From positions 1 through 21,098 of the IMG/VR virus record IMGVR_UViG_3300005841_000243: a stretch of DNA of 21,098 nt; one strand, given 5' to 3'. Source of the stretch: a virus. Shown in pieces: positions 9,260-19,075 of the stretch (position 1 is the first letter of the stretch; every line of letters starts with the position of its first letter). The position numbers and the translations under genes are program-made. The notes beneath the pieces are model-generated. The model had not been told where the DNA came from, made no database searches, and saw nothing but the letters and a program-made list of their open reading frames with translations.

Positions 9260-9442
9260 TCAAAGAACTAGTAGACCGAGTGCAACAAAGCCCAGACCAA
9301 CAGCCAACAGGTTCCACCCATAATCAATACTCTGTCGGAGAAAGTGTGACAGGGCAATGAGGAAGAAGATAATCACCGCCACTAGGAAGAAGATATCGGC
9401 CCAGTCCGAATTTCCGCTTGCCACATCAGCTAGGATTTTCAT
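9260..9442 (-). CDS. Two-TM membrane protein, holin candidate, 60 aa
   Basis: The ATG at 9442 is preceded by AAGGAGG with 8-base spacing, the best Shine-Dalgarno sequence in this part of the window. There are two hydrophobic segments: about 17-35 (DIFFLVAVIIFFLIALSHFL) and about 43-60 (WNLLAVGLGFVALGLLVL), with a short loop containing RQSIDYG between them. Small size, two membrane spans and position directly downstream of the endolysin fit a class II-type holin. The gene begins inside the end of the other membrane-protein gene (17-base overlap), so the pair may act as holin and antiholin or as a two-part holin. Lysis function is inferred from context. Confidence 0.68.
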   Translation of the reverse strand: MKILADVASGNSDWADIFFLVAVIIFFLIALSHFLRQSIDYGWNLLAVGLGFVALGLLVL

Positions 9443-9632
9443 TTCTATTCCTCCTTATAAACCAACTGGAAACATTCTCAATTGGTAACACTCCAACCAT
9501 AATCATTCCGATTACAAGTTGGCCAACCCTTTCTTCTGGATTTATCAGTGCATTACCGATAGTCCAGCAGCCAAGTCCGAATACTATGACTCGTCGAGCG
9601 ACAGCAAAGAGGAATTCAAAGCTCTGCTCCAC
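9426..9632 (-). CDS. Small membrane protein, holin/antiholin candidate, 68 aa
   Basis: The start is GTG at 9632 with GGGG a few bases upstream. Two hydrophobic stretches, about 7-29 (FLFAVARRVIVFGLGCWTIG) and about 35-51 (RVGQLVIGMIMVGVLPI), are followed by a charged C-terminus (FIRRNRNENPS). It sits between the endolysin (38-base gap) and the 60-aa membrane protein, which it overlaps. A promoter-like element ends just before the start codon, so it could be translated from a near-leaderless transcript. Function as holin or antiholin is inferred from topology and neighbourhood. Confidence 0.6.
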   Translation of the reverse strand: MEQSFEFLFAVARRVIVFGLGCWTIGNALINPEERVGQLVIGMIMVGVLPIENVSSWFIRRNRNENPS

Positions 9633-9670: not shown

Positions 9671-9895
9671 CTAGGACGTAGCCTTACCCAAGTATGCAGT
9701 GAGGTCAGCTTCGCTGAGAACTGAACAGGTGCCCCAATTGTTCATTGTTACCGTAGCTCCGGTAACTGCATCCTCTGCACCAGAGAATACAATGGAACGA
9801 ACGTGCTTCGGATCACGCACAATCTGACGAGTCTGACCGCCATCTTGTGTGTACCAGTAAGAGTTGGAACCTGATTGATGAGCTAGGAGCATCAT
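9671..9895 (-). CDS. Possible internally initiated C-terminal endolysin fragment, 74 aa
   Basis: In-frame ATG ATG at 9895 and 9892, preceded by GGGGAGG with 7-base spacing, would yield the endolysin C-terminal domain alone. Some endolysins, such as enterococcal phage Lys170, make a full-length chain and a separately translated wall-binding subunit that assemble together. The sequence shows the ribosome-binding site and starts; production of the short form is inference. Confidence 0.4.
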   Translation of the reverse strand: MMLLAHQSGSNSYWYTQDGGQTRQIVRDPKHVRSIVFSGAEDAVTGATVTMNNWGTCSVLSEADLTAYLGKATS

Positions 9896-10483
9896 TTCGA
9901 CGCCTCCCCTTTTCTTTGAAGTTGACGGGACAGTAGGCGTAGGTGGTGTGGGAGTAGGTGGAATCGGAGTAGGTTGACCGGGTAAGACCCACTTTTTAGG
10001 CTGAGGCGAGCCAGCGGCTTTCCACTGACTAACTGAGTGCGGGAATTCCGTAAATTGAAAATGCCAAACTTCGCCACCCCAAGTTGCCTGTTCTAGTCCG
10101 TACGCCTCACAGTTCTGAGCGGCCCATTTCAGGTCACCGATAGCATCTACAGCGGCAGAATAGCCGTAGACTACTTGTTCGTGGAAAGAGCGACCAGGAG
10201 GCGCTGCATGTGCTGCGCCAGACTTTAGCTGGTAACGCTTTCCATTGTATACACAGCAGCCGCCGCTAGTAACTTGATTGTGTCTCTCGAAGAAAACACG
10301 CTCTTGTTGTGTACTGGAACGACCAGCACCACCAATACTTAGCTTTCCTCCCGATGCAACCATCAAGCCACGGTAACGCTTCTGATACTCCGGGTGGAGC
10401 ATCATTACCGTAGGTTTGGCAAAGATTTGCTCGATAGTTAGCTGAGTTGGTGGACTACCGTATCCGTATGGGTATGTCGTCAC
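9671..10483 (-). CDS. Endolysin, M15-type peptidase plus C-terminal wall-binding-like domain, 270 aa
   Basis: Cell-wall peptidase of the lysis cassette. The GTG start at 10483 overlaps the stop of a 28-aa ORF as GTGA. Residues about 10-155 form an M15 (VanY/D-Ala-D-Ala carboxypeptidase-like) domain: the HAAPPGRSFHE block carries H101, D113 follows in SAAVDAIGD, and GEVWHFQ supplies E138 and H141. This is the usual zinc and catalytic set of the family, with a longer H-to-D spacing (12) than the canonical HxxxxxxD. A Pro/Thr-rich linker (about 164-190) leads to a C-terminal domain (about 197-270, YWYTQDGGQTRQIVRDP...), probably a wall-binding module. No signal peptide is present, so export depends on a holin, and two membrane proteins follow. 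A strong internal ribosome-binding site precedes Met197. Confidence 0.88.
   Translation of the reverse strand: MTTYPYGYGSPPTQLTIEQIFAKPTVMMLHPEYQKRYRGLMVASGGKLSIGGAGRSSTQQERVFFERHNQVTSGGCCVYNGKRYQLKSGAAHAAPPGRSFHEQVVYGYSAAVDAIGDLKWAAQNCEAYGLEQATWGGEVWHFQFTEFPHSVSQWKAAGSPQPKKWVLPGQPTPIPPTPTPPTPTVPSTSKKRGGVEMMLLAHQSGSNSYWYTQDGGQTRQIVRDPKHVRSIVFSGAEDAVTGATVTMNNWGTCSVLSEADLTAYLGKATS
9893..9909 (-). promoter_or_regulatory. Strong internal Shine-Dalgarno and ATG in the endolysin gene
   Basis: Minus-strand GGGGAGG (9903-9909), 7 bases, then ATGATG (9895-9890), exactly at the junction between the Pro/Thr linker and the C-terminal domain. It is stronger than the ribosome-binding sites of most annotated starts nearby. 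Confidence 0.55.
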
Positions 10484-10566
10484 TCGTCATCTTCCTCGAT
10501 GGGGTCCGAAACATGATCGTCCGGAATCTCATCATCATCTTCGTAGTCATATGGTTCGTCACTCAT
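10480..10566 (-). CDS. Tiny acidic ORF, 28 aa
   Basis: An ATG at 10566 overlaps the upstream stop (ATGA), and its TGA overlaps the endolysin GTG (GTGA), so it fits exactly into the gap with 4-base overlaps on both sides. Sixteen of 28 residues are Asp or Glu (MSDEPYDYEDDDEIPDD...). Its last codons (GAG GAA GAT) also provide the GAGGA Shine-Dalgarno for the endolysin start. It may be a real micro-protein, for example one partnering the basic proteins next to it, or chiefly a coupling leader for endolysin translation. No homologue recognised. Confidence 0.55.
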   Translation of the reverse strand: MSDEPYDYEDDDEIPDDHVSDPIEEDDE

Positions 10567-17054: not shown

Positions 17055-18254
17055 CTAGATTTCAGTGATGTTGGTCAGCTTGCCATGAGCGTTACGCTGG
17101 TGCGTACCGATCTGCCAATACTGCTTCATCATGGCCTCGAACGCATCGTAGTCCGTGATCCACTGAAGAACAGAACCGGCCCGATCTTCCCAGTACCAGT
17201 CCTTGTCACGCCAAATCTTGATTTCAGATTCGGTGATGAAGAACATGTTCTTGTCCGGGCAATCAGGATCGGCCACAACAGGCAAATCCTTTTCACCGTA
17301 CATGAACGAAAGACCGGTGAGACCACCATCAAAGGTCTTTGGCTCATTGTACCGACGGAGGGAAGTGAGGATGTTCCAGTACGAACGGCGAACACCGAGC
17401 GAACAGAAAATGGCGGACGGAATCTTTCCACCTGCACGGCGGATTTCATCCATTGCCTTAATCATGGCAAGTTCGGTGAGAGTTGCCGTGGTGGAATCCT
17501 CGTAGGAAGCCCACTTTGACGTAGTAGCCGGGTCCAGAGTGTGAACCGTACCAGTTGCGTCAATGATCTTGTTAAGACCCATCGGCTCCTGATCGTAGTC
17601 ACCAACACGGGACACATAGTTACCGACAACAGCGCCAGCAACAGCGGTATCAACCGTGAAAGTAGTTGAGGTCAGAATTGCCTGGATGACCTTTCCACCA
17701 CCACCTGAAACCGGAGTTCCAGCAGCAGTGATATCAATAACCATTCCAACGTCGAGATGGTTAGTTGAGTCAACCGTGATTGTGGTACCAGTTGAAGGCG
17801 AGGCGACCTTTGCCTTGATACCGGAGGCAACTGCGGCATCAATGTGCCCGTAAACCACCCGGTTCTCATCCTTGGCAATGTCGTCCTTCAAGCCATCCAT
17901 TTCCATGTCCATTGCGGACGTGAATGATTGGCGGTTGGATTCTGCCAAAGCAATGAGCGGACCTGAAAGACGAACACGACCGTATCCGTACTTCAGGCTT
18001 TCTTGCGCCGGCTTCAGACCTTGACGGCCAGCCGGAGCTAGTTGAACGTTCTCACCACGGTATGAGATACCGGCGTTACGGGAGATACGAACGGGGAAAG
18101 TGACGTACTTACCACCAACCGCATCTGTTGCAGTACCTTCTGCGGTACGCTCAATGCGCTTCATGGTAAGGCGCTCACTTGGGAGCTGATCGTTTACGTT
18201 ACCCTCATAGATTTCCTTGAGGATAGCGGAAACTGTGGCCAGGGTTGCGGACAT
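17055..18254 (-). CDS. Major capsid protein, HK97-type fold, 399 aa
   Basis: The ATG at 18254 overlaps the scaffold stop (TAATG). A longer frame from 18422 would run through the scaffold gene and adds 56 residues of non-capsid-like sequence, so I reject it. The N-terminal helix (LATVSAILKEIYEGNVNDQL) and the segment GGKYVTFPVRISRNAGISYRGENVQLAPAGRQGL precede a Ser/Thr/Val-rich insertion (about 165-230). The C-terminal half (AIFCSLGVRRSYWNILTSLRRYNEPKTF..., then WITDYDAFEAMMKQYWQIGTHQRNAHGKLTNI) matches the A- and P-domain pattern I associate with actinobacterial podovirus and siphovirus HK97-fold capsids. Placement after portal and scaffold is diagnostic. It forms the icosahedral shell. Confidence 0.88.
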   Translation of the reverse strand: MSATLATVSAILKEIYEGNVNDQLPSERLTMKRIERTAEGTATDAVGGKYVTFPVRISRNAGISYRGENVQLAPAGRQGLKPAQESLKYGYGRVRLSGPLIALAESNRQSFTSAMDMEMDGLKDDIAKDENRVVYGHIDAAVASGIKAKVASPSTGTTITVDSTNHLDVGMVIDITAAGTPVSGGGGKVIQAILTSTTFTVDTAVAGAVVGNYVSRVGDYDQEPMGLNKIIDATGTVHTLDPATTSKWASYEDSTTATLTELAMIKAMDEIRRAGGKIPSAIFCSLGVRRSYWNILTSLRRYNEPKTFDGGLTGLSFMYGEKDLPVVADPDCPDKNMFFITESEIKIWRDKDWYWEDRAGSVLQWITDYDAFEAMMKQYWQIGTHQRNAHGKLTNITEI

Positions 18255-19075
18255 TATTCTCCAAGTCCTTCTAGTGCTGCCATTACGGCGTTGCGCCGAT
18301 CTTGCCCTCTCAGTTTTTTGGCGTTCACCTGATCCACTGGTACACCACCCTGACCCCCCAAGACTCTTGGGGCTTGTCTTTGTGCACCAGTCTGATTGTA
18401 TTTGCCTAACATCTGCTTCCACTCCTGCATAGCTTGTTGCACATTACCGTGCTCAGCTAGCCGGACTAGAACCCAGTTGTCATCGAAGTCACCGAACCTA
18501 TTATGCATCATGTCAAGCACGTTGTCAAGTTGTGCATTTTCCTCAGCAGATTGCTGCTGAGCTTCTAGGTTCTGACGCCACTCACGAAACTCTTCTAGCT
18601 CCTGAGAAACGTTCTGCTGGAAGATTTCGTTTGGGTCTGGTTCTTCGTAGTCTCCACCTGCGTAGAACTCTTGGTCATCTGACATTTCCTCTGCCTCCAA
18701 TTGCAGAATGCGAGCTAGTTCTTGATCGAATCCATCACCGTACTGTTCCTGTAGACCGTTCCACATGATACGGAAGACATTTTCAGGATCAGCCTGGAAA
18801 TTGCGGGCCAGGTTGATATACTTCTGAAGTTCCTCGATGGGAACTCCGAGGTTCTCGTAAGGCTTTAGCCTTCCAGAATAGTCCTGAAACTTCTTTGTAA
18901 CTCCTGCATCCCAATCCTTAACATACCTGCCAACAACCTCACGATCTTGTGCAGGAATCTTGGCCAGGAATGGTGATGCTAGGGATAGATCCTCTTGGGG
19001 TTCAGCTTGGCTAGGTTCGATATCGGAAGAGTCTCCGTTATCAGAACCCCCGAAGCTAATTGCCGCTGGGTCCAC
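18254..19075 (-). CDS. Capsid scaffolding protein, 273 aa
   Basis: I choose GTG at 19075, with AAGGAAG (19084-19090) 8 bases upstream and a 20-base overlap with the portal end. The ATG at 19162 would add a His-rich N-terminus that is only the other frame of the portal's poly-Pro tail. The protein is mostly helical and acidic (ELEEFREWRQNLEAQQQSAEENAQLDN; EEMSDDQEFYAGGDYEEPDPNE), with predicted coiled coil, and ends in a small basic helix (NAKKLRGQDRRNAVMAALEGLGE), as typical scaffolds bind capsid through a basic C-terminal helix. Position between portal and capsid genes is the main evidence. It is probably required for procapsid assembly and released afterwards. Confidence 0.82.
   Translation of the reverse strand: MDPAAISFGGSDNGDSSDIEPSQAEPQEDLSLASPFLAKIPAQDREVVGRYVKDWDAGVTKKFQDYSGRLKPYENLGVPIEELQKYINLARNFQADPENVFRIMWNGLQEQYGDGFDQELARILQLEAEEMSDDQEFYAGGDYEEPDPNEIFQQNVSQELEEFREWRQNLEAQQQSAEENAQLDNVLDMMHNRFGDFDDNWVLVRLAEHGNVQQAMQEWKQMLGKYNQTGAQRQAPRVLGGQGGVPVDQVNAKKLRGQDRRNAVMAALEGLGE
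18500..18528 (-). promoter_or_regulatory. Candidate capsid promoter inside the scaffold gene
   Basis: Minus-strand TTGACA (18523-18528), 17-base spacer, CATAAT (18500-18505): 11 of 12 matches to the housekeeping consensus. A transcript starting near 18493 would cross the end of the scaffold gene and give extra mRNA for the capsid start at 18254. A second TTGACA lies inside the spacer (18511-18516). Confidence 0.4.

Follow-up and report, generated by a model that had tools for sequence, protein, structure and literature searches.

A predicted internal translation start at the domain junction of an M15-like phage endolysin gene and comparable sites in other lysins

Does the endolysin gene of this soil phage encode one protein or two? 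The window, i.e. the whole analysed stretch of 21,098 nucleotides of viral DNA, carries on its minus strand a two-domain lysin gene with what resembles a second gene start in its interior. An earlier note on this DNA had described a GGGGAGG Shine-Dalgarno (SD) sequence followed at 7-base spacing by two in-frame ATG codons, exactly at the joint of a Pro/Thr linker and the C-terminal domain, and the sequence confirms this arrangement. The gene and its parts are listed below, residues being numbered from the GTG codon at 10483.

9671-10483, minus strand: endolysin gene, 270 aa at full length, GTG start at 10483 (open frame and homologues in viral contigs)
10493-10497, minus strand: weak SD GAGGA for the full-length start (sequence; duplex -5.9, total +3.3 in a simplified initiation model)
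9977-10483, minus strand: M15/VanY-like catalytic domain, residues ~1-169 (invariant motif residues, confident model, Foldseek, Pfam in relatives)
9896-9976, minus strand: Pro/Thr linker ending in KKRGGVE (translation; pLDDT ~30)
9903-9909, minus strand: internal SD GGGGAGG (sequence; duplex -11.5)
9890-9895, minus strand: internal starts ATG ATG, Met197 and Met198 (sequence; both kept in the relative L003)
9674-9895, minus strand: C-terminal domain of 74 aa, presumed to bind the cell wall (80% identity in L003; no Pfam match)

Read along the minus strand, the junction is AAGAAAA GGGGAGG CGTCGAA ATG ATG CTC, in which the 7-nt spacer is of optimal length. The two ATGs begin at 9895 and 9892, the first having the better spacing (7 nt), and the short product predicted from ATG 9895 would comprise 74 aa (~8 kDa).

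In the catalytic part, residues ~1-169 contain SFHE...AVD and EVWH motifs, i.e. the zinc/catalytic pattern SxH...D and ExWH, with an H-to-D insert longer than that of SFHEIGLAAD in L033 (L numbers denote related loci or sequences compared with the window lysin), and S99, H101, D113, E138, W140, and H141 are invariant in an alignment of 17 sequences. AlphaFold2 predicts a confident domain over the first ~169 residues, for which the best Foldseek match is Ply500 (2vo9, E 3e-4), followed by LdcB and VanY. Pfam VanY matches five of the 17 aligned relatives and gives no match to the window protein itself. Taken together, the motifs, the predicted fold with its matches, and the Pfam hits in relatives support an M15/VanY-like enzyme (LAS fold) with predicted peptidase activity. 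The M15 class named in the earlier note is thus backed by sequence, structure prediction, and comparison, and so is its likening of the gene to Lys170 as a type II internal start. The capsid protein places the phage with actinophages, its closest named relatives coming from phages of Arthrobacter, Microbacterium, and Cellulosimicrobium.

The internal site is exceptionally strong within the window, where pairing was calculated for a host and 16S tail inferred from actinophage relatives. Its anti-SD duplex of -11.5 kcal/mol ranks first among 248 internal in-frame ATG, GTG, and TTG codons of the window genes and surpasses all scored gene starts (the best of them -11.1, at 9442; lysin GTG -5.9). 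A second measure, a simplified Salis-type initiation model that includes the cost of unfolding the mRNA, gives -0.1 for the internal site vs +3.3 for the lysin GTG, a difference of ~3.4 kcal/mol in favour of the former, and ranks it fifth of 241 internal starts and ahead of 15 of the 19 gene starts. The earlier statement that this signal is stronger than most real starts of the window holds both ways.

Such a signal might nevertheless be a coding coincidence, in which a linker with a basic, glycine-rich (KRGG) or acidic (EDD) end happens to use GGAGG-like codons close to a Met that is needed structurally to begin a strand. Met197 does open the first strand predicted for the tail (AlphaFold2, with low confidence there), ED is spelled GAGGA where codon use is GC-rich, and the chance of GGAGG given the residues amounts to 12-37% per gene. 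In the window gene, random synonymous recoding of the residues before Met197 produces GGAGG in 24% of cases. Because these residues favour SD-like codons, independent cases were sought in other lysins; the window sequence alone is insufficient as proof of selection, and most weight lies on the comparison. Permissive duplex energy proved uninformative as a synonymous test, as KKRGG pairs well with any codons, and strict 5-mer tests took its place.

The comparison revealed the same arrangement in five further M15 lysins (L019, L020, L031, L032, L040), where GGAGG lies 5-8 nt upstream of the junction Met, two of them (L019, L020) bearing an added GH25 domain. Their joints read LEDDN-M, LEDDD-M, SEDD-M, PEDD-M, and DVEAVD-M, each leading into a short tail that starts with Met, and GGAGG is read as GGA-GG in the window gene and as GAG-G preceded by G elsewhere. 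Moreover, L067 contains two lysin genes with a junction SD and start, one of the starts being GTG. In a set of 257 ORFs from related loci, each 200 aa or longer and spurious ones included, GGAGG precedes 13 of 1244 internal ATGs at a distance of 4-11 nt; seven of these 13 are M15 lysin junctions, among which two have the doublet seen in the window, and an eighth is the junction of an amidase lysin. In a non-random sample of lysins gathered by similarity to the window lysin or its GH25-bearing relative, GGAGG or AGGAG followed by a start at 4-10 nt fell into frames 0, +1, and +2 in 24, 4, and 0 cases (31 genes, including 11 GH25 lysins from isolated phages of Rhodococcus, Gordonia, Corynebacterium, and Mycobacterium and leaving out the M15 proteins L033 and L041-L059 with their different, long architecture), and in-frame ATGs followed GGAGG in 13 of 50 cases vs 10 of 314 for look-alike pentamers (26 dereplicated genes, P = 2.7e-7).

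Residues and codon register thus vary while GGAGG and its spacing persist, which argues for an RNA signal under selection, and chance or coding bias alone do not easily explain the frame and pentamer statistics. Further, the signal appears to go with the kind of tail: the examined M15 lysins with PG_binding or LysM tails lack any internal start preceded by an SD of at least 5 nt. Given that differing residues at differing joints all yield GGAGG at 5-8 nt, a mere coding coincidence seems improbable. The least probable of the explanations considered, and one to which we give hardly any credence, is a translational pause, i.e. an SD-like stretch that slows the ribosome between domains and aids folding with no initiation involved. 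The location at a domain boundary would suit such a role, but a pause needs no in-frame start just downstream, and yet in-frame starts are strongly favoured.

Several other observations were made among the lysins compared. An SD and start also occur at domain joints in the GH25 lysins L071-L081, which come from isolated phages of Rhodococcus, Gordonia, Corynebacterium, and Mycobacterium; some of these joints fall between two catalytic regions (e.g. L072, L073, L078). The M15 homologue of Microbacterium phage Count has a tail with repeats and showed no comparable SD and start at a linker junction. L033 and L041-L059 are long proteins (~410-460 aa) that combine an M15-like domain, a lysozyme-like region, and a common C-terminus, and they resemble virion-associated lysins.

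Close homologues are few. The lysins of L001 and L002 are identical in protein sequence to that of the window, and L004 ends within the linker. L003 is the informative case, being 76% identical overall and 80% in the tail domain, with a GC content of 0.67 vs 0.50 and a diverged linker of which K..GGVE is kept. Its junction DNA (AAAGGGGGCGTCGAGATGATG) retains both Met codons, and GGGGAGG has become GGGGG, a change across which a G-U pair maintains the predicted pairing. This pairing with an actinobacterial 16S tail is predicted to be even longer (-15.4), but it is partly offset by mRNA folding, leaving the site at +4.0 in the folding-inclusive model and hence weaker than that of the window. The earlier note had asked whether homologues keep the protein and lose GGAGG and ATG, and the answer is divided: both ATGs and the predicted pairing survive in L003, the literal GGAGG does not. 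In remote lysins, GGAGG is present at the analogous place.

These relatives also bear on a gene fusion, raised earlier as an alternative, by which the tail descends from a gene that formerly lay downstream on its own and whose SD and start linger at the junction, now unused. The junction SD and Met do resemble an intact gene start, split lysA genes are known from Gordonia phages (PMC9671378), and tail modules are exchanged among relatives: L005-L010, L018, and L022-L025 have the catalytic domain in common and end in PG_binding_1-like or LysM-like modules. To this extent the suggestion stands. On the other hand, searches of viral contigs, bacterial genome contigs, phages, and plasmids, which reach close relatives only, found no stand-alone copy of the tail domain. 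A disused SD should moreover decay, whereas L003 retains both Mets and the predicted pairing at 76% identity, and the feature recurs across many lysins. L003 and this recurrence make a useless relic the less likely outcome, and we regard it as unlikely, if somewhat less so than coding coincidence; a fusion origin as such is possible and compatible with a working internal start.

The 74-aa tail domain matched no family in a Pfam search, its AlphaFold2 model is poor (pLDDT 50), and the exact domain is known from two distinct sequences only. Comparison of the differing short tails of the M15 lysins did not establish homology among them. A PDB profile match to POP8 was weak and was disregarded. 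As the domain occupies the tail position and is replaced by LysM or PG_binding modules in close relatives, we presume that it binds the cell wall.

The gene is therefore best read, with reasonable though not full confidence, as a type II internal-start endolysin (as defined in PMC12203907) that would supply a full-length enzyme and a free C-terminal subunit of ~8 kDa for a predicted multivalent assembly. It is a single gene with an N-terminal M15 catalytic domain and a separate C-terminal module, and an in-frame ribosome-binding site and start codon lie between the two. Ribosomes starting at GTG 10483 would produce the full-length M15 peptidase including the C-terminal domain, while those starting at ATG 9895 behind GGGGAGG would produce the C-terminal domain alone. 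The short product would probably be in excess, since the predictions favour the internal site over the GTG. Free domains would then most likely join the domain of the full-length chain and make the enzyme multivalent in wall binding, as in Lys170, LysIME-EF1, and CTP1L. What is observed is the signal with its place at the junction, its ranking, and its reappearance in lysins whose residues and register have changed; use of the start in the host, wall binding by the domain, and oligomerisation are what we infer.

Two-product endolysins have been established experimentally in other families (PMC9430671, PMC12203907). A screen predicted internal starts in 51.5% of 3,780 endolysins from phages of Gram-positive hosts, the value for a portal-protein control being 15.2%, and each of the four genes tested there gave two products (PMC9430671). 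Free domains and full-length chains form complexes in the case of Lys170, LysIME-EF1, and the clostridial lysins (PMC9430671). Like Lys170 and LysIME-EF1 of Enterococcus phages and CTP1L, CD27L, and CS74L of clostridial phages, the window gene encodes a catalytic and then a C-terminal domain (PMC9430671, PMC12203907), and an in-frame SD and start at the junction would yield the latter alone, which is a prediction from sequence here. Unlike those lysins, whose catalytic domains are of the amidase, CHAP, or GH25 type (PMC9430671 Fig. 1), it has an M15/VanY-like catalytic domain and a tail whose sequence matches no Pfam family. Ms6 LysA and LysPollywog of actinobacterial phages likewise give two in-frame products per lysin gene, as predicted for the window; in contrast to Ms6 LysA (type I), where the short product retains an enzymatic domain, the short product here would consist of the tail domain only. 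Ply500 of Listeria phage A500, the best fold match, is also an M15 (LAS) endolysin, but identity in the match is ~20% and its wall-binding part is different. Our literature search turned up no internal start for Ply500.

How new is this case? No paper describing an M15 internal-start lysin was found, the supplementary tables of PMC9430671 lying outside that search, and to this degree the earlier suggestion of a new case is upheld. It must be qualified in that roughly every second endolysin of Gram-positive phages is predicted to have an internal start and that several other M15 lysins are alike. The kind of internal start is already known, and the M15 class would represent an extension of the two-product scheme, including small tail domains that have so far gone unannotated. 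For M15 actinophage endolysins as a group, it is an evenly balanced proposition that type II starts are tied to small undescribed C-terminal domains and that the free subunit, generally a part of lysin function, is selected; the occurrence of the SD in different codon registers would point to selection of the free tail. The same nucleotides and spacing with different residues and register provide a sequence-level argument for selection of internal starts in actinophage lysins. Where a recombinant lysin is produced from a codon-optimised gene, its second product could disappear, a point of importance to anyone testing such enzymes.

Additional small features surround the lysin gene. A very acidic ORF of 28 aa (10480-10566, minus strand; MSDEPYDYEDDDEIPDDHVSDPIEEDDE) overlaps the lysin GTG start, and in L003 a similar acidic ORF terminates directly upstream of the lysin. 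Downstream of the lysin, two overlapping small ORFs (9260-9632, minus strand) resemble a holin/membrane protein pair, the second having hydrophobic stretches and a near-perfect SD (AAGGAGG). Elsewhere in the window, a scaffold-like gene directly before the capsid gene (18254-19075, minus strand) contains internal in-frame ATGs at 18685 and 18412 with good SDs (GGAGGCAGAGGAAATG and GGAGTGGAAGCAGATG, respectively), which score better than the lysin site in the model that includes mRNA folding, and a nested product is possible in this gene.
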